From the NCBI GenBank assembly GCA_029251405.1, contig JAQXDK010000006.1:1-64000 (forward strand): a DNA stretch of 64,000 bases. Reading direction: 5' to 3'. This DNA is from Flavobacteriales bacterium (GTDB lineage: Bacteria; Bacteroidota; Bacteroidia; Flavobacteriales_D; Parvicellaceae). Shown in pieces: positions 1-14,124 of the stretch. Made by a program: the position numbers and the translations under genes. Position 1 is the first letter of the stretch; every line of letters starts with the position of its first letter. The notes under the pieces are model-generated. The model ran no database searches. It was not told the DNA's origin and saw only the letters and a list, made by a program, of their open reading frames with translations.

Positions 1-2
1 CA

Positions 3-3000
3 AAGGTACAGGATGTGCAGTGTAATGGAGCTGCGGATGGTAGCATATCAGTATCAGCATCAGGAGGCACACCAAATTACACGTATTTATGGGATGATGG
101 TGCTGGGCAGACAACGGCAACAGCTACGAATTTAGCACCTGGGAATTATACGGTAACAGTAACAGATGATAATGGATGTTCATTTACGACAGCACCAGCA
201 GTGTCAATTACGGAGCCAAATGCGTTAGTTGCAAATCTTATAGATATAGATAGTGTTATTTGTAATGGAGGATCGAATGGCGCTGCAACAATAGATGCTA
301 GCGGAGGATCTGCCGGTTATAATGTAAGTTGGACAGGTGTAACTGTTAGTGGTACAACTATTTTTGAAGATCCTCTCGGAACAGAAATTATAAACGATGG
401 AGATACATATACCATAAATTCTTTCTCATCCGGGACTTATGATATTACCGTAATAGATCAGAACGGTTGTAATACATCAATAAATACTGTTGTTATTGAG
501 GAGCCACCAGTAATGACTGTCTCAACTATTGCACATCCTGTTATTGCTGACTTTCAATATATGGGAGTAAATGAAGACAAACAAACTTTTTGCTATTTCC
601 ACGACGGTACTTTGAGTTGGGATGCTGGAAGAGCAAAATGTCAGATCAATGGTGGTGACTACATTATGGTTAAAACACTTGCAGAGCAAACCGCTTATAA
701 TGCATTATTTGGTGGTTTAACCGATTCAAGAGGTTGGATTGGTCTTAGCCAAAATGAAAGCTCACCTTTATACACCCCAATTGTTTCTGGTGGAACAAGT
801 GGTAATCCAGATGAAGCTAAAACTGGATGGGAATGGATCGATGGAACACAGTTAACATATGACGATGCTTCTGACACTTGGAGTGGTTTTCAATCTTGGG
901 GTAGTGGAGAACCTAATGATTGGAAGTTTGGTGTGGCTACAGCAGTCGGACAAGAACAATGGGCTCAGTTTTGGAGTCAGCCAAATCCAGGTGAGTTCTC
1001 TTGGAATGATCACAGAGATCCTCAAAAATTTTATATGGAAATCCCCATTGGAAATACAATCAATGGTAACCATGTTTCTTGCTTTGGTGGTAATGACGGT
1101 AAAGTTGTTGTTACTGCTGTTGGTGGAGAAACTCCATATTCTTATTCTTGGAATACAACACCGGTCCAAACAACCGATACAGCTTTTAACTTAACTGCAG
1201 GTGAGTACATTGTTGTAGTAACAGATAATCTTGGATGTGAAGCAAAAGATACTGTAGATATTACTCAGCCATTACCCTATGATATAAGTTCTTCGCAAGA
1301 TAGTGTAAACTGTTTCAATGGAAATGATGGTTCTGCAACAGTTGTGGTTTCAGGTGGCACACCTAATTACACATATTTATGGGACGACGCATCGGCCCAA
1401 ACTACTGCAGCTGCAACAAACCTAGTTGCTGGCACCTATACTGTTTTAATTTCAGATGATAAAAGTTGCGACTCAATTGTGACAATTGATGTTTTAGAAC
1501 CTGCAATATTTGATATTTCTACAGATCAAGATAGTGTAACTTGTTTTGGAAGCATAGATGGTTCAGCTATTGTTATCGTTAATAGTGGAGGAACAGGTTC
1601 TTATTCATATTTATGGGACGCAGCAGCTGGAAATCAAACTTCCTCTACAGCTACCAATTTATCTGCTGGAACCTATTCCATAACTATTTCAGATTCCTAT
1701 TCTTGTGATACTGTGATTTCTGTTCAAGTTCTTCAACCAAATACTCTAACTGTCCTTAATACAAGAAATGATATTACTTGTTTTGGAGGTAGTGATGGGG
1801 AGTTTATTTTAACGGTTACTGGAAGTACAGCGCCTTACAACATTTCTTGGTCTGGTACAGAATCAGGCGATCCTTTAGGCTCTGAAATTTTGAATGATGG
1901 AGGTAATTATACCATATCTTCTTTAAGTGCAGGCCCTTATGCAATTAATATATCAGATCAGTATGGTTGTGACACAACAATTTTTAAGACTATTCTATCA
2001 CCAGAACAATTAATTGTTTATACCTCTCAAGACAGTGTAAGTTGTAATGGTTTTGTTGATGGTTCAGCTTTTATTGATTCGACAACTGGTGGGATCATTA
2101 ATTATTCATATTTATGGAGTAACGGATCAACTAATGATACGGCAACAAATCTATTAGCTGGGACATACACAGTAACAGTTACAGATGCATTTCTTTGCGA
2201 TACTACGGTGACTGTAACAGTATTGGAGCCGGATGCGTTATTGATAGCGTCTATGAGTATGGACAGTGCTAGTTGTAATGGGGTTGCAGATGGGACAGCT
2301 ACGGCAAATGGGATAACTGGAGGAAATGGAGTGAATACGTTCAGTTGGAATACGACACCGGTACAGACTACGAATCCTGCTACAGGATTAGCAGCAGGGA
2401 ATTACGAGATTACGGTTACGGATCAGAAAGGCTGTTTTGCTAAGAGAGATACTACGGTATTGGAGCCATTAATATTAACAGCAGATACGACAGCACAAGA
2501 CAGTGTAAGTTGCAACGGGTTAGCAGATGGGTCTGCTAGTGTATTAGGTTTAGGAGGAAATGGAGTTTACACTTACCAATGGGATTTAGCAGCAGGCGGA
2601 CAGATTGGAGATACGGCAACGAATTTATTAGCTGGGACTTATACGGTAACGATTACAGATCAGAAGGGATGTTTCAAGGATACAACGGTAACAGTTTTAG
2701 AGCCAGCAGCATTAACAGCAGATACGACAGCACAGGACAGTGTAAGTTGTAACGGTTTAGCAGATGGGTCTGCTAGTGTATTAGGTTTAGGAGGAAATGG
2801 AATTTATACTTACCAATGGGGTGTTGCAGCAGGCGGACAGATTGGAGATACGGCAACGAATTTATTAGCTGGGACTTATACGGTAACGATTACAGATCAG
2901 AAGGGATGTTTCAAGGATACAACGGTAACAGTTTTAGAGCCAAATACTCTTACTATTGATACTACTTATCAAGACACAGTAACGTGTAACGGTCTTAATG

Positions 3001-6000
3001 ATGGATCAGCTACCGTTACAGTCATTGGCGGTAATGGATCTTACACTTATCAATGGGATTTAGCAGCAGGTGGCCAAACAACAAGCACAGCAACCAATTT
3101 ATCAGCCGGAATATTTTCAGTTACTGTTACGGACCAATATGGATGTAACATTGATACAACGGTAAGTGTCTTTCAAAAAGATTCGTTAATAATTGGTTTG
3201 GTGAATCAAGACAGTGTAAGTTGTAATGGATTGGCAAATGGATCTGCAAGTGTCGGAAATATTAGTGGAGCAGGTGGTATTTATACATATTTGTGGGACC
3301 TGTCTACAGGTAGCCAAACTGGTGATACAGCAACAAATTTATTAGCGGGAACATACACGGTAACAGTTTCAGACCAGAATGGATGTAATTTAGATACTTC
3401 TATTGTTGTTCTGGAGCCTTTAACATTAACAGCTGACACTACTGCACAAGATAGTACAAGCTGTAATGGATTAGCAGATGGATCTGCAAGTGTTTTGGGT
3501 ATAGGCGGTAACGGTATTTATACTTACCAGTGGGATTTAGCAGCAGGTGGTCAAGTTGGAGATACAGCTACAAATTTATTAGGAGGAATTTATACTGTTA
3601 CTATAACAGATCAGAAAGGATGTAATAAAGACACTACTATTGAGGTATTACAACCAAATCAAATTTCTTTAACGATAAGAGTTGATAGTTCAACTTGTGG
3701 TAACAGCGATGGAGGTGCTTATGTTGATGCATCTGGAGGTTCAGTAATAACAGACTATTTTTATCAATGGAAGGACAATACTGGTTTAGATTTAAACAAT
3801 AATGATGACAGTCTTAATAACGTAGCTTCTAGTGCTTACTTTGTTTTTGTTACTGACGACAATTTATGTACAGATTCTATCCAAATTATAGTACCGGAAA
3901 TTGGTGGCCCTCAAGTTAGCGATAGTGTAGTAAATATTCTTTGCTATGGGGACTCTACAGGTGAAATACATATTACAGCAACCGGAATCAGTCCTTTTAG
4001 TTATTCGTGGATTGGACCAGCAGGTTTTAATGCCCCTGGAGACACTTCAATTGTTTATAATTTAGATACTGGTTTATACACTGTAACAGTAACGGACGAC
4101 ATTAATTGTAATACAACTCTTGATAGTATTAGAATTTCTGAACCAAACTTTCCATTATCTATAGATACAACTATTAAAACATTAACTTGTAATAGCGATT
4201 TATCTGGTGCAATTAACATTAATGTTAATAACGGTACTTCTCCATTCGATTATTCATGGACAGGAGACAATGGATTTACTTCAACCACTCAAAACATCTC
4301 TGGGTTAGCGGCTGGTGTTTACGTTCTTAATGTTATAGATGATAATTCTTGTAAAATAATTAACGATTCTATTACAATTACTGAGCCTGACACAATTATC
4401 ATTAACGAAACTTTAATTGCACCAACATGTAATAATACTGATGGTAGCATAGTTGTCAATGTTACAGGAGGTTCAACAGCAATAGATTATACTTATAATT
4501 GGGAAGAGTCACCTTCGGGTAATCCATTAGTAGGAAATGCAACTCTGACGAATATAGGTCCTGGAGCATATCAAGTAACTGTTCAAGATGATAGTTCATG
4601 TAGTGAGACAAAAGTGATCACTATAAGTACCGTTGATGGACCAATATTAGCAGACTCAATAATTAATATCACATGTAATGGCAATGCAGACGGAGAAATT
4701 TATTTAGCAGTTAGTAATTTAAGTGGTGTTGCATATGGTGTAGATTGGGATTTAGATAATTTAATTGGAAGCGGTGATGCAAATGGTCCAGATTCAGATA
4801 CTTTATTAAACTTACCAGCTGGAACATATACAGTTTATGTTACTGATTCAACAAATGGTTGTGTGACAATTTCTCCTTATATTGTTGTAGATCCAGGAGT
4901 AATTCTTCTTACTACTTCTGTTGATAGTGTTTCATGTACTGGTGGAACAGATGGTTCACTGTCAGTAGCTGCAACAGGAGGAAATTTAGGATATAATTAC
5001 CAATGGGATTTAGCAGCAGGTGGTCAAGTTACAGATACTGCAACTAACTTGACAGCGGGTACTTACACCGTTACAGTTACTGACATAAAAGGTTGCGATA
5101 GCGATACCTCGATTCTTTTGGAAGAACCTAATGAATTGTTGATAACTTCTATATGGTCTGACAGTATTAGTTGTAACGGATTAGCAAATGGTTCAGCTAG
5201 TGCTATACCTTCTGGCGGAAACGCTGGATATACTTATCAGTGGGATTTATTTGCAGGTGGTCAAACATCAGATACTGCTACAAATTTAAGTCCTGGAACT
5301 TATATAGTTACTATTACGGACTCTAAAGGCTGTTTTAAGGACACCACAATTACAATTTCTGAACCTGATATTTTAGCTGTAGACTCAGCTTATCAGGATA
5401 GTGTAAGCTGTAATGGATTAGCTAATGGTAGAGCGGTAATAGATAGCGTAAGTGGTGGAAATGGAATTTATTCTTATGCATGGGATATTGCAGCAGGTGG
5501 TCAAACGACAGACACTGCAAGTAATTTAACAGCTGGAATTTACACTGTGAGAGTTTCTGACCAAAAGGGGTGTTTTGAAGATACTTCTATAACAGTTTTT
5601 GAGCCTAGTGCAATTTCAGCTGATACTACAGTACAAGACAGTGTAAGTTGTAATGGATTAGCAAATGGTTCTGCAAGTGTACTAGGTCAAGGTGGAAATG
5701 GAATTTATTCTTATGCTTGGGATATTGCAGCGGGTAGTCAATTAAACGATACAGCTATAAATTTAGCAGCAGGTAATTATATTGTAACAATCACAGATCA
5801 AAAGGGTTGTTTCAAAGATACTTCTGTAACTGTATTGGAGCCTATAATTTTAACGTTTGACACCGCATACCAGGACAGTGTTAGCTGTAATGGATTAGCA
5901 GATGGATTAGCTACAGTGTCTGTTTCTGGAGCAAATGGAGGATTTACTTATTTATGGGATGCTACTGCAGCTAGTCAGACAACAGCAATTGCAAGTAATT

Positions 6001-7355
6001 TGACTGCTGGGACTTTTAGAGTGGTAGTTTCAGATCAAAATAACTGTTTAGATAGCGTAGATATTACGGTTTTTGAACCTAATAGTATTAGTATTTACAC
6101 TTCTAACGATTCAGTAAGTTGTTATGGATTAGCAGATGGATCTTCATGGGTAGATAGTATTACTGGTGGAAACGGATCTTTTACTTATCAGTGGGATGCC
6201 AATGCCAATAATCAACAAACCGATACCGCAAGTAATTTGACCGCTGGTACATTCAATGTTACGGTAACAGATCAAAACAATTGCTCTTTAGATAGTAATG
6301 TGGTTATTTTACAACCAGATTCTTTAACTGTAGATACGGTTAGTACCACAGACCCATATTGCCCTTCTGCTAATGATGGAAGTATTAACCTAGCCATCAA
6401 CGGTGGATCTCTTCCAATAACTACTAGTTGGACAAATGTTGCAAACACTTTTACTTCAACTGACCAAGACATTAGTAATTTATTTATAGGAACTTATATT
6501 GTTACTGTAACTGATAATAATGGATGTAATTCTAAAGACACTACAACCTTGTCTCCAATTGTTGAGATAGTGGTTAATGCAGGTAGCGATACTCTTGTTT
6601 GCTTTAGCGATAGTCTAGTTCTAACGGGATCCAGCACTGGAACAATAACCCCTACTTTGGATTGGTCATTCTACAATCCAACTGCAGGTACAGATTCTTC
6701 TATTGCTACAGCATCAAGTCAAGTAGATATTTCTTCCTTCACTCAGGATTCTGCACAAGTTTATAGCTTTATCTATACTGTGACTGAGCAGTCTTGTACA
6801 GTAAATGACACAATTCAAGTAAATGTTGCTGCTTTACCGATTGCAAGTGCAGGAAATGATACAACTCTTGGTTATAACGACCCTTACATACTAGGAGGCA
6901 ATCCAACAGGGCCTGTCGGATCTAGCTACATATGGAATAATACAGTTAATTTTGTTTTTGAGTCAGATTCTATAGAACCGAATCCATCTATTGATGTTTT
7001 AACTAGTCAAATTTATGTTGTAATTGTTACAGATAGCAATGGATGTATTAATTCAGATGACGTTGATATTAAATTAATACCTGATATCATTGTTCCGTCT
7101 GGATTTTCACCGAACGGAGATGGAATTAATGATACTTGGATAATCCAAAACCTTGACCAATTCGACGAGCCAAAAGTGAGTGTATATAACAGATGGGGAT
7201 CTAGATTATTCTTCACTGATAATTCAAATGAAAACTGGGATGGTGGAGGAAACGATAAAATGACTCCAGTAGGAACTTATTACTATATCATTGAATTCGT
7301 TGGATATGATGGAAAGCAAAATAATTTAACAGGACCAATAACAATAATTAGATAA
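3..7355 (+). CDS. SprB-repeat giant adhesin with C-type lectin-like domain and T9SS type B sorting domain (5' partial)
   Basis: The reading frame is already open at the window edge, so the N-terminus is missing; a GTG at 15 is only an internal Val. About 25 tandem SprB-type repeats of 65-85 residues are visible. Each begins near SVSCNGLADGSA, continues with YxWD, NLxAGTYTVTVTD and GC, and ends near VLEP. A C-type lectin-like domain sits between the second and third repeats (nt ~575-1050), with WIGL, GEPND and WND motifs. Near the end are a PKD/Ig-like region (NAGSD, SAGNDTT) and a type B sorting domain (FSPNGDGINDTW, YNRWG, GTYYYIIEF). The family comprises cell-surface adhesins exported by the T9SS, such as SprB in gliding. 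The stop overlaps the start of a PorP/SprF gene, its likely outer-membrane partner. The ligand is unknown. Confidence 0.9.
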   Translation, partial: KVQDVQCNGAADGSISVSASGGTPNYTYLWDDGAGQTTATATNLAPGNYTVTVTDDNGCSFTTAPAVSITEPNALVANLIDIDSVICNGGSNGAATIDASGGSAGYNVSWTGVTVSGTTIFEDPLGTEIINDGDTYTINSFSSGTYDITVIDQNGCNTSINTVVIEEPPVMTVSTIAHPVIADFQYMGVNEDKQTFCYFHDGTLSWDAGRAKCQINGGDYIMVKTLAEQTAYNALFGGLTDSRGWIGLSQNESSPLYTPIVSGGTSGNPDEAKTGWEWIDGTQLTYDDASDTWSGFQSWGSGEPNDWKFGVATAVGQEQWAQFWSQPNPGEFSWNDHRDPQKFYMEIPIGNTINGNHVSCFGGNDGKVVVTAVGGETPYSYSWNTTPVQTTDTAFNLTAGEYIVVVTDNLGCEAKDTVDITQPLPYDISSSQDSVNCFNGNDGSATVVVSGGTPNYTYLWDDASAQTTAAATNLVAGTYTVLISDDKSCDSIVTIDVLEPAIFDISTDQDSVTCFGSIDGSAIVIVNSGGTGSYSYLWDAAAGNQTSSTATNLSAGTYSITISDSYSCDTVISVQVLQPNTLTVLNTRNDITCFGGSDGEFILTVTGSTAPYNISWSGTESGDPLGSEILNDGGNYTISSLSAGPYAINISDQYGCDTTIFKTILSPEQLIVYTSQDSVSCNGFVDGSAFIDSTTGGIINYSYLWSNGSTNDTATNLLAGTYTVTVTDAFLCDTTVTVTVLEPDALLIASMSMDSASCNGVADGTATANGITGGNGVNTFSWNTTPVQTTNPATGLAAGNYEITVTDQKGCFAKRDTTVLEPLILTADTTAQDSVSCNGLADGSASVLGLGGNGVYTYQWDLAAGGQIGDTATNLLAGTYTVTITDQKGCFKDTTVTVLEPAALTADTTAQDSVSCNGLADGSASVLGLGGNGIYTYQWGVAAGGQIGDTATNLLAGTYTVTITDQKGCFKDTTVTVLEPNTLTIDTTYQDTVTCNGLNDGSATVTVIGGNGSYTYQWDLAAGGQTTSTATNLSAGIFSVTVTDQYGCNIDTTVSVFQKDSLIIGLVNQDSVSCNGLANGSASVGNISGAGGIYTYLWDLSTGSQTGDTATNLLAGTYTVTVSDQNGCNLDTSIVVLEPLTLTADTTAQDSTSCNGLADGSASVLGIGGNGIYTYQWDLAAGGQVGDTATNLLGGIYTVTITDQKGCNKDTTIEVLQPNQISLTIRVDSSTCGNSDGGAYVDASGGSVITDYFYQWKDNTGLDLNNNDDSLNNVASSAYFVFVTDDNLCTDSIQIIVPEIGGPQVSDSVVNILCYGDSTGEIHITATGISPFSYSWIGPAGFNAPGDTSIVYNLDTGLYTVTVTDDINCNTTLDSIRISEPNFPLSIDTTIKTLTCNSDLSGAININVNNGTSPFDYSWTGDNGFTSTTQNISGLAAGVYVLNVIDDNSCKIINDSITITEPDTIIINETLIAPTCNNTDGSIVVNVTGGSTAIDYTYNWEESPSGNPLVGNATLTNIGPGAYQVTVQDDSSCSETKVITISTVDGPILADSIINITCNGNADGEIYLAVSNLSGVAYGVDWDLDNLIGSGDANGPDSDTLLNLPAGTYTVYVTDSTNGCVTISPYIVVDPGVILLTTSVDSVSCTGGTDGSLSVAATGGNLGYNYQWDLAAGGQVTDTATNLTAGTYTVTVTDIKGCDSDTSILLEEPNELLITSIWSDSISCNGLANGSASAIPSGGNAGYTYQWDLFAGGQTSDTATNLSPGTYIVTITDSKGCFKDTTITISEPDILAVDSAYQDSVSCNGLANGRAVIDSVSGGNGIYSYAWDIAAGGQTTDTASNLTAGIYTVRVSDQKGCFEDTSITVFEPSAISADTTVQDSVSCNGLANGSASVLGQGGNGIYSYAWDIAAGSQLNDTAINLAAGNYIVTITDQKGCFKDTSVTVLEPIILTFDTAYQDSVSCNGLADGLATVSVSGANGGFTYLWDATAASQTTAIASNLTAGTFRVVVSDQNNCLDSVDITVFEPNSISIYTSNDSVSCYGLADGSSWVDSITGGNGSFTYQWDANANNQQTDTASNLTAGTFNVTVTDQNNCSLDSNVVILQPDSLTVDTVSTTDPYCPSANDGSINLAINGGSLPITTSWTNVANTFTSTDQDISNLFIGTYIVTVTDNNGCNSKDTTTLSPIVEIVVNAGSDTLVCFSDSLVLTGSSTGTITPTLDWSFYNPTAGTDSSIATASSQVDISSFTQDSAQVYSFIYTVTEQSCTVNDTIQVNVAALPIASAGNDTTLGYNDPYILGGNPTGPVGSSYIWNNTVNFVFESDSIEPNPSIDVLTSQIYVVIVTDSNGCINSDDVDIKLIPDIIVPSGFSPNGDGINDTWIIQNLDQFDEPKVSVYNRWGSRLFFTDNSNENWDGGGNDKMTPVGTYYYIIEFVGYDGKQNNLTGPITIIR
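2475..2948 (+). repeat. Near-identical tandem duplication of one SprB repeat (2 x 237 bp)
   Basis: Units 2475-2711 and 2712-2948 are almost identical over 237 bp (79 codons), differing at only a few positions such as GATTTA versus GGTGTT after CAATGG. Neighbouring repeats share only protein-level similarity. This indicates a recent in-frame duplication or gene conversion within the adhesin gene. Confidence 0.85.
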
Positions 7356-8302
7356 TGAAAGTAGCATCTAAACATATCATTATTTTAATTGGAATTATAG
7401 CATGTATCACTGCTTACAATGCACAACAAATTCCAGTTTACAGTCAATTCTTTATGAATAAATACACCCAAAACCCAGCTTTTGCAGGAATGGATCATGT
7501 ATACGATGTTACCTCTAATCATAGGTATCAGTGGGTTGGAATTCGAGATTATCCAAGAACATATACTCTTAGCATTAACGGACCCACAAAAGATTTGAAA
7601 AATGGTTTAGGAGCATTTATATACACAGATAATGTGGGGCCTACCCGAAGAACAGGTGCCCAAGCGTCTTATGCATATCACATGAATGTTACTGAAGATA
7701 TCGAAGTTTCTTTATCTCTAAGTGCAGGACTAATAGAATGGAAAGTAGATGGTAATCAATTAACTTTCACTGAACCAAATGATCCTGCTTCTTCAGGTAA
7801 TGTTATGAGATCTGTAATGCCAGACGCTAAGTTTGGGTTTTTATTTTATAATGATAAATGGCATTTTGGTGGAGCGGCGCCTAATTTACTTCAAAATAGA
7901 ATCAACTTTTTTGAAGATAAAAATCCAATATCAAAAGGCAATAAGTTAGAGGACCATTATTTTATTCATGGTGGATATGACTTCATATTACCTTATGATT
8001 TGGTTGCAGACCCTTACCTCTTAATGAGATATGTTGCTAACGTACCACTTCAACTAGAATTTGGGTCTACAGTTACATGGAAAAGCACTGCTTGGGCAGG
8101 GTTTTCTTATAGAACAGGAGATGCACTTTCGATGCTCTTAGGGTATACCTATCAAGATTATATATCCTTTGGTTATTCTTATGATTTTACCACTTCCAAT
8201 TTGAGTAACTATTCTGGAGGATCTCATGAGCTACTTTTTAGAATTCTTTTTAAAAGGTCCAAAAATAAAAATGAGAAAAATAAACCAGAAAAAGTACTCT
8301 AA
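7355..8302 (+). CDS. PorP/SprF family type IX secretion system membrane protein
   Basis: This 315-residue protein has a signal peptide (hydrophobic residues ~8-22, ending near YNAQQ). It then has the family hallmark: PVYSQFFMNKYTQNPAFAG, followed by alternating beta strands typical of an outer-membrane barrel (GAFIYTDNVGPTRR, LLGYTYQDYISFGYSYDF). PorP/SprF proteins lie in the outer membrane and bind to T9SS components or to type B sorting-domain cargo at the surface. The ATG overlaps the TAA of the upstream adhesin by one base (TAATG), so the two are probably translationally coupled and function as an adhesin-anchor pair. The C-terminus is lysine-rich. It is more likely a cargo-dedicated paralogue than the core PorP, because no PorK-N genes lie nearby. 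Confidence 0.9.
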   Translation: MKVASKHIIILIGIIACITAYNAQQIPVYSQFFMNKYTQNPAFAGMDHVYDVTSNHRYQWVGIRDYPRTYTLSINGPTKDLKNGLGAFIYTDNVGPTRRTGAQASYAYHMNVTEDIEVSLSLSAGLIEWKVDGNQLTFTEPNDPASSGNVMRSVMPDAKFGFLFYNDKWHFGGAAPNLLQNRINFFEDKNPISKGNKLEDHYFIHGGYDFILPYDLVADPYLLMRYVANVPLQLEFGSTVTWKSTAWAGFSYRTGDALSMLLGYTYQDYISFGYSYDFTTSNLSNYSGGSHELLFRILFKRSKNKNEKNKPEKVL

Positions 8303-8542: not shown

Positions 8543-9010
8543 TTAGTCTTCGACCTTTAACAACATTTTATAATCGCCACGAAGATATTTTTTTGAGTCA
8601 AGTGGAACTTCCTTGAAATTAAAAATATCGTACAAACTTCTGGCAGCTTTCAATTTACTATTGGAGATTAAAAAAATTTCTTTCATTTTTTCATTTTTTG
8701 CATAAGAAATACATTGAGACAAGAGGATTTTAGATAACCCTAACCCTCTATAATTAACGTGAATTGTCATTTTTGCAAGTTCCATAATTCTATTGTCTAA
8801 AGGAATCATAGCAGCTGTTCCGATTATTACTTCTTTGTGAAGGATAAAAAAAATTTCACCACCTTTTTCTATTACTGATGTTATAGGGTTTAGTAAGTCA
8901 TTTAAATCAGATTGCTCTAATTCCCAATATTCTTCTATCCAGTTCTTATTTAGCTCATAAAATGCTTTAGCGTATTGAGGTTGGAAAGTTTTTAGCTGAA
9001 ATTTTTCCAT
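8543..9010 (-). CDS. GNAT family N-acetyltransferase
   Basis: The protein is about 155 residues with the GNAT fold: an acceptor-side strand IIGTAAMIPL, then the acetyl-CoA pyrophosphate-binding motif A (HVNYRGLGLSKILL, Q/RxxGxG/A type), then motif B around AARSLYDIFNFKEV. A longer frame starts at 9046, but the ATG at 9010 overlaps the stop of the upstream gene in a TAATG junction and begins just before the conserved fold (MEKFQLKTF), so I prefer it. It is the last gene of the minus-strand run that starts at 14124. The substrate cannot be told from sequence; GNAT proteins may acetylate small molecules, antibiotics or protein amines. Confidence 0.8.
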   Translation of the reverse strand: MEKFQLKTFQPQYAKAFYELNKNWIEEYWELEQSDLNDLLNPITSVIEKGGEIFFILHKEVIIGTAAMIPLDNRIMELAKMTIHVNYRGLGLSKILLSQCISYAKNEKMKEIFLISNSKLKAARSLYDIFNFKEVPLDSKKYLRGDYKMLLKVED

Positions 9011-10119
9011 TATTTCTTTTTCTTGAAAGGATACCTTTGAATCCATTTTTTTGGAGATATTTTTTTAATAAAGGGATAAGTTAAAAATCTTAAAAATGCA
9101 TTGTTTGAGTAAATACTACTCTTAGATTTAACAGGTATTGCGCCAATTGTACTTTTAAATTCTGAAGCAGTTCGTCCATAAACAATCTTGCTTACTTTTT
9201 TTTCTATTCCATGAATAATGGAATCGTATAATATTCTATTGTAAATGCTATATTCCTTATTGTAAGAATAATCTATACCTATGAAGTAAGAGTATAATGT
9301 ATTATTACAATGAAACTCAGAAGAAAACCCAATAATTTCTTCATTTAAAGAGTATGTATATAAAGAAAATTCTATTTTCGAATAGGTAGTAAAATCTATA
9401 AGTGTATGTAAATCTAAAGGTGGACCTGAAAACAAAGACTTTCTATAAACATTTAGATATAATTCTTGTAATTCTGGAATTAGTGATTCTATTTTATTGG
9501 AAGAGATTTTTTTTATTTGTAAAGAATTACTTTGTTTAAATACTTTTCGAATTCTTTTTTTGTACTTAGAAATAACGGCATCGGTATAATCACCAAAGGA
9601 TTTCCATTTAGAATCTAAATACAAGACCATATCAGGATCAATATTAAATTCAGAAGATAGTAGTAAGTTTTGTTGTTTAGTAATTGAATTTAAAAAATCA
9701 CTTGGAAGCAAAAAGAAATTGATTTTATAATTAGTACTAATAAAATCGATTAAATTTTTTAAATCTTCTTCTTTAAGTTTAGAATTTGGAAATGAATTGG
9801 AAGAGATATTTGATAAGTGAGTATTCCCAAAACAAAAAAATTTCAAGTTTAATTTTCTTATAAATAGTTTTGTTAAACTGTACTTTTTGTTATTGATATA
9901 GTTAGCTACTTTTTCTCCTTCAATGGTAATTAAATGTCCATAAACAACACCGTTTTCAAAATTTATGTAAAAAGGTTGAATCTCTTTTTCATTTAAATTT
10001 TTCTCAAAATTTTTTAAAAATTCTGATTCAAGGAAAATATGGTTCAAGTCTAAATTAGAATTCCATAATTTTTGATCTAATTCGTTTACTGAATGGAATA
10101 TTTCAAAAGATGTATTCAA
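9010..10119 (-). CDS. FemAB/GNAT-like acyltransferase domain protein
   Basis: This 369-residue cytoplasmic protein has a C-terminal half resembling the peptidoglycan FemAB / GNAT-superfamily fold. It has a basic segment KYKKRIRKVFKQ, then strand-rich EEIIGFSSEFHCNNTLYSYF, then YGRTASEFKSTIGAIPV, a motif seen in Bacteroidota GNAT/FemAB-like proteins. FemAB relatives transfer aminoacyl groups to cell-wall precursors, but this protein's acceptor is unknown. It overlaps the upstream helicase gene by 4 nt and the downstream GNAT gene by 1 nt, so the three are probably co-translated. The N-terminal ~150 residues are not recognisable. It could instead be a specialised acetyltransferase. Confidence 0.65.
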   Translation of the reverse strand: MNTSFEIFHSVNELDQKLWNSNLDLNHIFLESEFLKNFEKNLNEKEIQPFYINFENGVVYGHLITIEGEKVANYINNKKYSLTKLFIRKLNLKFFCFGNTHLSNISSNSFPNSKLKEEDLKNLIDFISTNYKINFFLLPSDFLNSITKQQNLLLSSEFNIDPDMVLYLDSKWKSFGDYTDAVISKYKKRIRKVFKQSNSLQIKKISSNKIESLIPELQELYLNVYRKSLFSGPPLDLHTLIDFTTYSKIEFSLYTYSLNEEIIGFSSEFHCNNTLYSYFIGIDYSYNKEYSIYNRILYDSIIHGIEKKVSKIVYGRTASEFKSTIGAIPVKSKSSIYSNNAFLRFLTYPFIKKISPKKWIQRYPFKKKK

Positions 10120-11516
10120 TTAAAGAATGCATTACTGAAATTAATAAGATATAATTTTTTTGATGCTCTTGTAATGGCTGTATATAACCACCTTAAATAA
10201 CTTAAATCTAACATGTCGTTTTTAAAATAACCTAAATCTACAAGTACATTTTCCCATTGACCTCCTTGAGATTTATGACATGTAATAGAATAAGAAAATT
10301 TGACCTGCAAGGCATTTAAAAATTTATTTTCTTTAATTTTCTTTTTTGCGTTCTCCCCTTTATACTCTAAGCTGATTTTTTGATATAGCTTTTGATATTC
10401 TTCATAAGGTAATGAGGGGGTTTCTAATTTAATGGTATCGAGCATTACAATGACATCTAATTCCTTTTCTTCCAAAAAGTCAATCATTTTTATGGTGACA
10501 TTGGCAAATTTTAAATCATACTTACTTATGATTTCATTAACGCTTAATACTTCAATAATATCTCCATTAGCTATTAGTTCTGATTTGGTATTATCTCCTA
10601 GCCAGAAGTAATTATTCTTAACAACCATTAGCAAATCTCCAGTAGAAATCTCTTCTTCAAAATACCTGATTCTAGAACGTATTTGTTGGTTGTAAATATT
10701 TGCTCTTTTGTTAGAACGACAAAGTACAATGGTATTGGTAATGCCAGTTTTATTGTAATTATCTTCTAAACATTCTTGCAGTTCATCACCAGACTGTATT
10801 CTTGTAACATCCTCACTTTCTAGAAATTTAGGTAGATTGAAATCATGGTTAGAAATTTGCATCCTTAGGTTGGTAGCATTATGGAGAATAGTTGAAGACT
10901 TAGCTTGCCTAACTACTTCTTTGAGGCTATGTGAAATGATATCTTTTGAATAATTTTGTCTTAAAGAATCTTCACTTAAAGCAGGACTAATTTCTAAATG
11001 CACCGGTGGCAATTGAGCAGTATCTCCAATTAAAATTAATTTGCAGCCGATACCATCATAGACATACTGAATTAAGTCATCTAATAGCGACCTGTTGCCA
11101 AAACCTTTATCAGAGGCTTCTGGAATCATGGAAGCCTCATCTACAATGAAAATTGTATTTGAATGTGTATTCTCTTTTAGCTTTATGTAGGTATTACCAT
11201 GTTTATTTGAATTTATCCAATATATTTTTCTGTGGATGGTAGAGGCACTTTTTTTAGAATACTTGGACAATACTTTAGCTGCTCTACCAGTTGGGGCGAG
11301 TAGTGATGATTTTTTATTTACAGATGATAGACTGTTAACCAAAGCAGAAATTAAGCTGGTTTTACCAGTTCCTGCATAACCTTTTAGTAGGAAAATACTT
11401 CCCGTACTAATTGAAAGAATGTAATCGGATAATTCCAAAGTAATCTCCTGCTGTTCTTTGGTAAAAGAAAAAGGAAAATTGGAAGTTATTTTATCTTTTA
11501 AAATTTTAGTGTTCAA
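10116..11516 (-). CDS. ATP-dependent RecD/Pif1-like DNA helicase (SF1B)
   Basis: The 466-residue protein has a Walker A LKGYAGTGKTSLISAL (residues ~44-58), motif Ia LAPTGRAAKVLSKY, Walker B FIVDEASMIPE, motif III LILIGDTAQLPPV, and a C-terminal UvrD_C2-type block with YSITCHKSQGGQWENV and LYTAITRAS. These are the ordered motifs of RecD/Pif1-type 5'-3' helicases. It is shorter than RecD2, with no long N-terminal extension. Single-copy helicases of this kind are common in Flavobacteria and probably process DNA ends or stalled forks. It lies 26 nt after the MoxR-like gene and overlaps the FemAB-like gene by 4 nt. Confidence 0.88.
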   Translation of the reverse strand: MNTKILKDKITSNFPFSFTKEQQEITLELSDYILSISTGSIFLLKGYAGTGKTSLISALVNSLSSVNKKSSLLAPTGRAAKVLSKYSKKSASTIHRKIYWINSNKHGNTYIKLKENTHSNTIFIVDEASMIPEASDKGFGNRSLLDDLIQYVYDGIGCKLILIGDTAQLPPVHLEISPALSEDSLRQNYSKDIISHSLKEVVRQAKSSTILHNATNLRMQISNHDFNLPKFLESEDVTRIQSGDELQECLEDNYNKTGITNTIVLCRSNKRANIYNQQIRSRIRYFEEEISTGDLLMVVKNNYFWLGDNTKSELIANGDIIEVLSVNEIISKYDLKFANVTIKMIDFLEEKELDVIVMLDTIKLETPSLPYEEYQKLYQKISLEYKGENAKKKIKENKFLNALQVKFSYSITCHKSQGGQWENVLVDLGYFKNDMLDLSYLRWLYTAITRASKKLYLINFSNAFFN

Positions 11517-11542
11517 ATTGCATCTAAATTAAAGTTCAATAA

Positions 11543-13006
11543 CTATATGTTTTTAATATAGTTTCCGTAAGGATCTTGAATTTGGATTCCATTACTGTAC
11601 GCTACTTTAGTCAATTTTTTAAACTGAACCAACCCCCAGAGAGTAAATTCTTTTAAGAACGGGAGATCTTTTTTCAAGGTATTAGGTTGATATTTTTTAA
11701 CTAGATTATTTAGAGGCAAAATAGACATCAATTTTTCTTGATATTCTTCATCAGTTATATCATTTAAGATTTCGAAACCTGTTTCGTTAAAAAACCAAGA
11801 AATAAGTTCGTCATAAGGGCTCTCACCGTTCTCTTTTTCTAATTTTTCTATTTTAGGAAATAATTTTACAAACAATGTTTTTACGGCATTTTCAATTAGT
11901 TGATTTGCTACAAATTCTGCACCTTCTTGTTCTCCTTCATAAACTAATTCAACTTTACCAGTTATTGCAGGTATAATACTGGTGAAATCTGCTAATCTTA
12001 AACAGGTTTTTTCCTCGTTATTTTTAAGCAATCTTAATTCAGCTTTACTTAATAGATTTTCTAAAGCGGATATACTAAGTCTTGCACTAACTCCACTTTT
12101 TTCATCAACATATTCACTTACTCTAGCTTCAAAACTAATTTGTTCTAATAAATCTCTTGCAAGTTCTGGGATATGAATATTTGTTTTTTGAGATTCAGTA
12201 GATTTAATTTCTTGTGAGGTTATTTTTTTTGCTATTTCTATATCTTTTGGATAATGCGTTAGGATTTGAGAACCAATTCGATCTTTAAGTGGTGTTACAA
12301 TACTTCCTCTATTGGTATAATCTTCGGGGTTGGCAGTAAAAATAAACTGGATATCTAAAGCTAGTCTTAACTTGAAACCACGGATTTGAATGTCCCCTTC
12401 CTGTAGAATATTAAACAACGAAACTTGGATCCTTGCTTGTAAATCAGGAAGTTCATTAATCACAAAAATACAACGATTTGCTCTTGGAATCATTCCGTAA
12501 TGTATAACTCTATCATCCGCATAACTTAGTTTTAAATTGGCCGCTTTAATAGGATCTATGTCTCCGATTAAATCTGCAACTGTTACATCAGGTGTCGCTA
12601 ATTTTTCTGCAAATCTATCAGATCGATGAAGCCAACTTATAGAAGTTTTGTCTCCTAGTTCTTTTATTTTCTCTTTTGCAAACTCTGAAATGGGAGCTAA
12701 AGGGTCGTCATAAATCTCAGATCCTTCTACATATGGAATATATTCATCTAACAGTTTTATGAGTAACCTAGCAATTTTTGTTTTTGCTTGACCTCTCAAT
12801 CCTAGTAAATTAATATTATGTCTTGATAGAATGGCTTGTTCCAGTTCTGGAATTACAGATTCTTCATAACCGTGAATGTTGTCAAAAACATTTATTTTAT
12901 TTTTGATATTATGAATTAAGTTGTCTCTAAGTTCATCTTTAATACTTTTTTGTACGTATGAAGTTTTTCTAAGTTCTCCAAGTGTTTTAGTTTTAAGATA
13001 ATTCAT
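11543..13006 (-). CDS. MoxR/magnesium-chelatase-like AAA+ ATPase
   Basis: This 487-residue AAA+ protein has Walker A LLGLRGQAKTKIARLL (near residue 70), with Ala-Lys-Thr in the P-loop, and Walker B CIFVINELPDL. The sensor-1 region is FIFTANPEDYTNRGS, with the arginine-rich LKDRIGSQILTHYP after it. The layout matches the magnesium chelatase I / MoxR branch of AAA+ ATPases, which act with VWA-domain partners to remodel proteins or insert metal ions. The partner is clear: the VWA gene upstream overlaps it by 4 nt. No chlorophyll or cobalamin genes are nearby, so a chaperone-like role is more likely than chelation. Confidence 0.85.
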   Translation of the reverse strand: MNYLKTKTLGELRKTSYVQKSIKDELRDNLIHNIKNKINVFDNIHGYEESVIPELEQAILSRHNINLLGLRGQAKTKIARLLIKLLDEYIPYVEGSEIYDDPLAPISEFAKEKIKELGDKTSISWLHRSDRFAEKLATPDVTVADLIGDIDPIKAANLKLSYADDRVIHYGMIPRANRCIFVINELPDLQARIQVSLFNILQEGDIQIRGFKLRLALDIQFIFTANPEDYTNRGSIVTPLKDRIGSQILTHYPKDIEIAKKITSQEIKSTESQKTNIHIPELARDLLEQISFEARVSEYVDEKSGVSARLSISALENLLSKAELRLLKNNEEKTCLRLADFTSIIPAITGKVELVYEGEQEGAEFVANQLIENAVKTLFVKLFPKIEKLEKENGESPYDELISWFFNETGFEILNDITDEEYQEKLMSILPLNNLVKKYQPNTLKKDLPFLKEFTLWGLVQFKKLTKVAYSNGIQIQDPYGNYIKNI

Positions 13007-14124
13007 TTTATTCTTTTTTTTCTATTGGTTTCGTAATCTTCAAAAATCATTTCTCCTAGATTTTGAAGCCCGGTGTAAAAAGCTTTTCCCTTATTAGCAT
13101 CTGTAAATTGTTTTACAAATTGCATTAAATATGGATCTTGAGCTATCATGAATGTTGTAATAGGGATATGCAACCTTCTTGCTTGTTGAGCCATCGCATA
13201 ACATTGATTGGTTATGTAAGGGTCTAAACCATTACTGTTTTTATAATATCTTCCATCTTTTTCTATTACACAACTTGGTTTGCCGTCAGTAATCATAAAG
13301 ATTTGTTTATTGGTATTTCTTTTTCTTCGAAGCATATCCATCGCAAGACTAAGACCTGCAACAGTATTGGTGTGGTAGGGACCAACTTTAAGATAGGGAA
13401 GATCTTTAACTCCTATGGGCCAAGCATCATTTCCAAATACTAATATTTCGACACTGTCCTTAGGATATCTGGTTTTTATAAACTCTGAAAGAGCCATAGC
13501 TACTTTTTTTGCAGGTGTTATCCTATCTTCTCCATAAAGTATCATGCTATGGCTAATATCAATCATAAGCACTGTACTCATTTGACTTTTATGATAAGAC
13601 TCTTCAACAACTAAATCGTTTTCGCTTAAAGTGAAGTCACCAATACCGTGATTCACATGAGCATTTTTTAGAGATTCAGTAATGGATATTTTTTCAATGG
13701 GATCTCCAAACTGAAAAGCCTTAAAATCACCTGTTTGCTCGTCACCAATTCCTTGTTTATTGCTTTTATGATTTCCTAAACCATTTCTTTTTATTTTACC
13801 AAATATTTGGGTTAAGGCTTGTTTTCTTATCGCTTGCTCAGTTTTAGCTGTCAAGGAAATACCACCATTCCCTTCTGCATCTATTTCTTCCCGGATATAT
13901 CCTTTTTCTTTAAGTTCTTCAACAAAGTCATCAATTGTATAATCTTCATTTGTTAACTTATATTCTCTATCCAGTTGTTTCAGCCAATCTATAGCTTCGT
14001 CAAAATCTCCAGATGTGTGAGTGATAAGTTCTTTGAAGATATCTAATAGCTTATCAAATGGACTTTGGATTTTCGATTCATAATTTTTAAATATGAACCC
14101 TGATTTGTTTTTAGATTTTGACAT
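13003..14124 (-). CDS. VWA domain-containing protein, partner of the MoxR-like ATPase
   Basis: The 373-residue protein has a von Willebrand A domain in its C-terminal half. The MIDAS motif DISHSM (DxSxS) is at residues ~189-194, followed by PAKKVAMALSEFIK, the strand VEILVFGNDAW and MITDGKPSC, the last two marking further metal-site residues. The N-terminal ~150 residues are charged and helical (DFDEAIDWLKQLDRE). There is no signal peptide, so it is cytoplasmic. It heads the minus-strand run and overlaps the AAA+ ATPase by 4 nt, the usual MoxR-VWA pairing in which ATPase and metal-dependent adhesion domain form a remodelling complex. The target is unknown. Confidence 0.85.
   Translation of the reverse strand: MSKSKNKSGFIFKNYESKIQSPFDKLLDIFKELITHTSGDFDEAIDWLKQLDREYKLTNEDYTIDDFVEELKEKGYIREEIDAEGNGGISLTAKTEQAIRKQALTQIFGKIKRNGLGNHKSNKQGIGDEQTGDFKAFQFGDPIEKISITESLKNAHVNHGIGDFTLSENDLVVEESYHKSQMSTVLMIDISHSMILYGEDRITPAKKVAMALSEFIKTRYPKDSVEILVFGNDAWPIGVKDLPYLKVGPYHTNTVAGLSLAMDMLRRKRNTNKQIFMITDGKPSCVIEKDGRYYKNSNGLDPYITNQCYAMAQQARRLHIPITTFMIAQDPYLMQFVKQFTDANKGKAFYTGLQNLGEMIFEDYETNRKKRIK

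Follow-up and report, generated by a model that had tools for sequence, protein, structure and literature searches.

At its 5' end, the window (the whole stretch of DNA that was analysed, 64,000 nucleotides) carries the 3' part of a gene for a giant SprB-repeat adhesin, in which a C-type lectin-like domain (CTLD) is set between two of the repeats. We consider it likely that the protein is a lectin adhesin that is tethered to the cell surface and depends on calcium. Its lectin probably falls in the EPN (mannose/fucose/glucose) class, and the adhesin is more likely static than gliding. In the mechanism that we propose, about 35 or more SprB repeats would form a stalk. The C-terminal domain would pass the adhesin to the adjacent carrier of the PorP/SprF family, which would anchor it in the outer membrane. 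The CTLD would then be placed far out from the membrane, though not at the N-terminal tip, where it would bind sugar through Ca2+ and so attach the cell to glycans on algae, on particles or on other cells. Within an SprB-type adhesin, the CTLD is a specific candidate for a sugar-binding module, whereas the repeats alone name no ligand. If it does bind, it names the glycan class by which such bacteria hold algae or particles.

The adhesin gene and its probable 5' part

The adhesin frame spans positions 3..7355, on the forward strand as all window features given below, and corresponds to 2450 amino acids with an open 5' end. Pfam recognises 25 SprB stretches in it (E 1.3e-156). The cores of repeats 2 and 3, at 249..365 (SprB hit at residues 83-121) and at 1068..1184 (residues 356-394), lie on the 5' and 3' sides of the CTLD, respectively. 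The tail is a T9SS type B C-terminal sorting domain (7089..7340), found both as CHU_C by Pfam (E 1.5e-20) and as TIGR04131 by NCBIfam (60.5 bits vs. a cut-off of 35). The first-pass annotation of this DNA had described a T9SS adhesin with about 25 SprB repeats, in agreement with these matches. The protein belongs with the type B SprB-repeat adhesins and, by its lectin-like domain, with the CTLD superfamily.

The adjacent gene encodes a 315-residue carrier of the PorP/SprF family (7355..8302; TIGR03519, 257 bits vs. a cut-off of 90.55). In Flavobacterium johnsoniae, according to the available part of the report, secretion of two type B substrates requires a PorP/SprF-like protein encoded just downstream, and the order type B substrate then PorP/SprF-like gene is described as common (PMC12618676). 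PorP/SprF proteins have been proposed as anchors of type B proteins (PMC9143113, available in part). Adhesin and carrier are laid out in the window as in these F. johnsoniae type B pairs, so that a long stalk of repeats would hold the lectin outside the cell.

The contig that holds the window (C37) starts at window base 1, and the 5' part of the gene very likely lies on a second contig of the same genome, C45. Indeed, nucleotide comparison within the genome gives 88-96% identity between the terminal repeats of C45 and window positions 1-227. By arithmetic, the C45 frame is in phase with that of the window, with 814 codons from C45:43064 to C45:45506. This last frame of C45 adds 10 SprB repeats, and its start resembles a signal peptide, as judged by eye only. 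The ends of C45 and C37 are not identical to each other, and the two contigs together hold 33 of the genome's 39 SprB matches. From these data, we infer the join and thus a single adhesin gene, whose product would have some 3300 residues and at least about 35 SprB repeats, not counting repeats in the contig gap. The comparison with the gene 5' of the window, for which the first-pass annotation had asked, yields a probable in-frame continuation of the repeats. The near-identical repeats at window positions 1-227 and C45:45018-45663 perhaps go back to a recent tandem amplification, at which the assembly broke. Directly 5' of the adhesin's 5' part, C45 also carries a second pair, made up of a small CHU_C-tailed protein and its own PorP/SprF gene (L010:13933-15929).

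A C-type lectin-like domain between two SprB repeats

The CTLD occupies approximately positions 549..1046 (about 165 residues, from Pfam, profile and model) and lies in the short linker that runs from the end of repeat 2 (...EEPPVMTVST) to the start of repeat 3 (...HVSCFGGNDG). This is the position first proposed for it, with a length slightly greater than the 155 or so residues then estimated. When the domain is scanned alone, Pfam Lectin_C gives 23.3 bits (E 1.1e-4), over the Pfam cut-off of 22.6, and together with its neighbours in the frame it gives 23.8 bits. The score falls to 19.0 bits (E 0.0025), under the cut-off, when the full protein is scanned. It is the genome's only Lectin_C match at E 10, a level at which 2 of 14 control genomes are matched, below the cut-off. 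Sequence searches with the domain return the mannose-receptor family and other CTLDs, and a 10-row profile does likewise.

A model of the domain (178 residues, from the 10-row alignment; m99b507fcaa7b) has a pLDDT of 73.6 and a pTM of 0.75. The best 50 of its 558 Foldseek matches are all C-type lectin or lectin-like domains, and 544 of 712 chains picked by Foldseek and aligned to the model reach Z >= 8. The best structural match is CL-K1/collectin-11, with a Z of 15.1 and an rmsd of 2.0 Å over 123 residues at 23% identity. The WIGL core motif is found at 735..746, and the EPND and WND motifs noticed along with it at 909-920 and 1002-1010. Domain search and predicted structure thus agree on the C-type lectin fold that had been suggested from the letters, and a prediction devoid of that fold, named beforehand as the result that would speak against it, did not appear. 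As far as prediction goes, the fold is secure.

Modelling the domain jointly with repeats 2 and 3 gave a poor model (pLDDT 54.5), with which Foldseek still returned CTLDs. The seventh match of that joint model, the Aureispira grappling-hook protein GhpA, superposes with an rmsd of 44.5 Å over 424 columns and was set aside as a chance likeness of Ig-like repeats. When window positions 1290-3000 were searched by sequence, the one PDB match was a decoration protein, and GhpA was not found.

The predicted calcium site and the cysteines of the CTLD

Alignments place the putative sugar site in three elements. The first is the EPN motif (909..917), whose Glu and Asn are predicted Ca2+ and sugar ligands. 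The second is a Glu (954..956, in GQEQW, opposite GNED of the relatives), the predicted third ligand. The third is the WND motif (1002..1010), whose Asn and Asp are predicted Ca2+ ligands. Through the 10-row profile, these columns fall on EPNN, LED and WND of a CTLD of Endo180. The E and N of EPN, the E, and the N and D of WND are what we take, from mannose-binding protein, to be the five ligands of the principal Ca2+ site. At the level of sequence, alignments with the relatives and with Endo180 find all five in the window CTLD. The EPN motif is associated with sugars of the mannose, fucose and glucose class. Hence, the domain most likely serves to bind, through Ca2+, a mannose-, fucose-, glucose- or GlcNAc-class sugar.

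The first-pass annotation had proposed an EPN-type Ca2+ site for mannose or glucose and had pointed to the absence of the EPN and WND residues as the finding that would count against it. Both motifs are in place, so that a site of this type is supported at the level of sequence. In the model, the loop that carries three of the five ligands is enlarged and poorly modelled, and the ten-residue blocks with EPN (model residues 121-130) and with the third Glu (131-140) have mean pLDDT values of 48 and 52.

The disulfide cysteines, left open at that stage, are mostly gone. By eye on the alignment, helix 1 retains its canonical CTLD cysteine (639..641, in AKC), the only one of four, and the residues close to the three remaining positions are Met, Trp and His. 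An extra, non-canonical cysteine is seen in TFCYF (591..593) in the translation and alignment. Since one canonical cysteine out of four is present, we do not class the domain as a canonical disulfide-bonded carbohydrate-recognition domain.

Lectin-like domains in related bacteria

CTLDs as such are ordinary in the class of this genome, which we take to be Bacteroidia from the names of its relatives. C-type lectin domains, familiar above all from animal immunity, occur there often, with Pfam Lectin_C matching 68 of 395 genomes at E 0.1 and 46 of 395 over the cut-off, and none of 14 control genomes. With profile A4 at 1e-6, 52 of 399 genomes from the order are matched, as are 39 of 395 from the class; these counts include the seed genomes and come from overlapping draws. 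The window domain itself finds matches in 3 of 100 related genomes, its own included, and in 1 of 395 genomes of the phylum, which is its own. As a single-protein query, it gave no confirmed relatives in genome contigs or viral contigs. Profile A2 found 12 loci in genome contigs and none in viral contigs. Profile A4 found 48 viral-contig loci, three of which were used as alignment rows. These 48 loci (L161-L208) encode CTLD relatives as judged by tblastn, and L161, L178 and L205 show EPN, GNEDY and WND.

Other large Lectin_C proteins of the same class or order belong to the same broad CTLD family, and many have both EPN and WND. In two proteins from other CTLD loci, a Pfam scan lists Calx-beta or HYR domains in place of the SprB flanks. 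In a Marinoscillum protein (L027:3779-11884), the CTLD seems by eye to be split: its first half runs up to about residue 768, and its second half, with EPN...WND, is at 905. The stretch between them reads like Calx-beta (Pfam lists eight). Along the protein, halves that belong to successive CTLDs alternate. CTLD halves in the same odd order were seen by eye at L025, L026 and L020-L023. For L022, HYR domains are present and Pfam lists no Lectin_C.

The SprB-CTLD-SprB layout and the fate of the putative sugar site

SprB repeats within 70 residues on both sides of a CTLD are also found in a genome of the same genus (G001), twice in one of the same family (G025) and in one of another family (G536). 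The window's own upstream gap between SprB and CTLD is 62 residues. The first scan covered 58 loci (L100-L157, 77 CTLD segments, from the A4 surveys, with about 1.5 kb of flank each). Three of them have both flanks (L100, from G001; L101, the window; L129, from G536) and one, L150, has a single flank. The second covered 54 CTLD ORFs from L016-L029, L060-L099 (40 places from the Pfam survey of the class) and the window; it found both-sided flanks only in those genomes and in both CTLDs of G025 (L017). SprB anywhere in the frame of a CTLD is commoner, with 12 of 59 ORFs (L100-L157) and 15 of 54 (second set), duplicates included. The SprB model was built from the window, so that divergent repeats may be missed in all these counts. 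The G001 adhesin lies in several frames (L016:8316-8783 and neighbours), and a frameshift is seen close to the end of the first of its CTLDs, through sequencing error or decay.

In a tree of 77 rows, a clade (98/85) unites five CTLDs, which are those of the window, G001 and G025, and the CTLD of G536 stands apart on weak branches. When all six SprB-flanked rows are held together, the log-likelihood is 7.18 higher than that of the free tree (p-AU 0.679). A single origin of the SprB-flanked CTLDs is thus neither rejected nor shown by these trees.

These comparisons bear on an alternative in which the CTLD fold is intact and sugar binding has been lost, the domain binding protein instead, as many animal CTLDs do, or serving as a spacer in the stalk. 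The end branch of the window CTLD (1.68) is the second longest of the 77. Two of the five readable SprB-flanked CTLDs, sisters of that of the window, carry Gln in place of the third ligand and WDD instead of WND, the sixth being frameshifted. The three missing canonical cysteines and the enlarged, poorly modelled loop point the same way. Against such a loss, the window CTLD has retained all five ligand residues in its sequence despite its divergence. In addition, 50 of 99 distinct CTLD segments have EPN with W-[NDAY]D or WFD after it, a regular-expression count that misses some by construction and includes the seeds and the window. We regard loss of binding as unlikely, and a calcium-dependent sugar site remains our preferred reading of the domain. 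Because of the long branch and the enlarged loop, its specificity may nonetheless have drifted.

The PorP/SprF carrier and the question of gliding

The adhesin had initially been called gliding-type. The gliding machinery would pull a moving adhesin of the SprB/RemA kind along the cell while the lectin of this adhesin grips the substratum. SprB repeats, a type B tail and an adjacent PorP/SprF carrier are all features that such a protein would have, and the genome encodes GldJ, with a summed score of 472.9 bits for the frame (cut-off 458.2), as well as GldL (200.9 bits, cut-off 68.3). Both moving and static type B adhesins are described for F. johnsoniae in the accessible part of one report, where the static one stands beside a PorE-like gene (PMC12618676). 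In the window, the next listed ORFs downstream of the carrier (8543-14124) are on the opposite strand and therefore no PorE-like gene follows in the adhesin operon, as would be the case for a moving adhesin.

The carrier tail argues in the other direction. In F. johnsoniae, as far as the available part of the source goes, a Cys-X-Cys in the SprF tail forms a disulfide to GldK and couples SprF to the gliding track. When the twin cysteines are substituted, gliding is abolished and the continuous movement of SprB is almost completely suppressed, with SprB still exposed at the surface (PMC12635249). The window carrier, in contrast, has a single cysteine, at residue 17 near the N-terminus, and none in its tail. 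Cysteine is entirely absent from the carrier next to the G536 adhesin. The carrier of G025 (672 residues, PorP/SprF at 23-294) and that of G001 (split across three frames) have no Cys-X-Cys, and in each a single cysteine lies about 20 residues before the end. A SPOR-like end suspected by eye in the G001 and G025 carriers is not listed by Pfam at E 0.01.

Cys-X-Cys is found in none of the genome's 12 PorP/SprF proteins, one of which (L219) is covered to 811 of 873 residues. Four of them (L212, L214, L215 and L220) have a cysteine in the last 15 residues (e.g., SCPSF), none as Cys-X-Cys, and L214 lies beside gldJ; in L213, a cysteine is 19 residues from the end. Since all 12 proteins, as far as read, are without the motif, its lack in the window carrier is weak evidence for a static adhesin. 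We do not file the protein as a gliding adhesin because the carrier tail has no Cys-X-Cys. The label gliding-type is not supported. A moving adhesin seems improbable to us, and a static tether is more likely, on this weak evidence.

A further proposal is that SprB-CTLD-SprB is one cassette, inherited or transferred, present in two families of the class and marking stationary lectin tethers. These would be giant type B adhesins whose carriers are devoid of the SprF twin-cysteine link (either plain without a tail cysteine, or extended), and through them the cell could grip glycans of the mannose, fucose or glucose class whether or not it glides. We put it forward as a rather doubtful conjecture, which the single cysteine near the end of the G001 and G025 carriers makes slightly less likely. 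The carrier tail may offer a simple predictor of moving vs. stationary adhesins. The novelty of the arrangement is that of a recurring combination of known parts. Among the papers searched, none was found on C-type lectin or lectin together with SprB or SprB repeat. Lectin_C, PF00059 and "C-type lectin" are not mentioned among the matches listed in wider searches, and the further matches listed include, by title, none on Bacteroidota gliding.

Finally, the CTLD fold is a usual target fold of diversity-generating retroelements and the branch of the window CTLD is long, but we rejected directed hypermutation of a variable protein as extremely improbable, since there is no template-like copy of the CTLD and window positions 1-1500 match elsewhere in the genome only in SprB repeats (E 0.001, 53-contig draft).

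Relationships with known systems

SprB of F. johnsoniae has SprB repeats in common with the window adhesin. The two proteins also share a type B tail and a PorP/SprF gene directly downstream, as given in the part of the report at hand (PMC12618676). The window adhesin differs by its CTLD, which is absent from the descriptions of F. johnsoniae SprB in the portions of the sources available, and by a carrier without the tail Cys-X-Cys that F. johnsoniae SprF has.

The lectin domain of F. johnsoniae RemA is galactose-binding, with a fold different from that of a CTLD. In the accessible parts of the sources, RemA is likewise a T9SS-secreted surface adhesin with a lectin domain, which is mobile and binds rhamnose and galactose (PMC11205867), and it has a type A tail (PMC12618676), whereas the window adhesin has a type B tail and SprB repeats.

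Among the matches listed, the animal C-type lectins (collectins, langerin, mincle, the DC-SIGN family and the mannose-receptor family) have the same fold as the window CTLD, with Z values of 13.5-15.1. They share with it the WIGL core and the EPN, E and WND residues. In contrast, the window CTLD keeps one of the four canonical cysteines, has an enlarged long loop and is carried by a bacterial repeat stalk.
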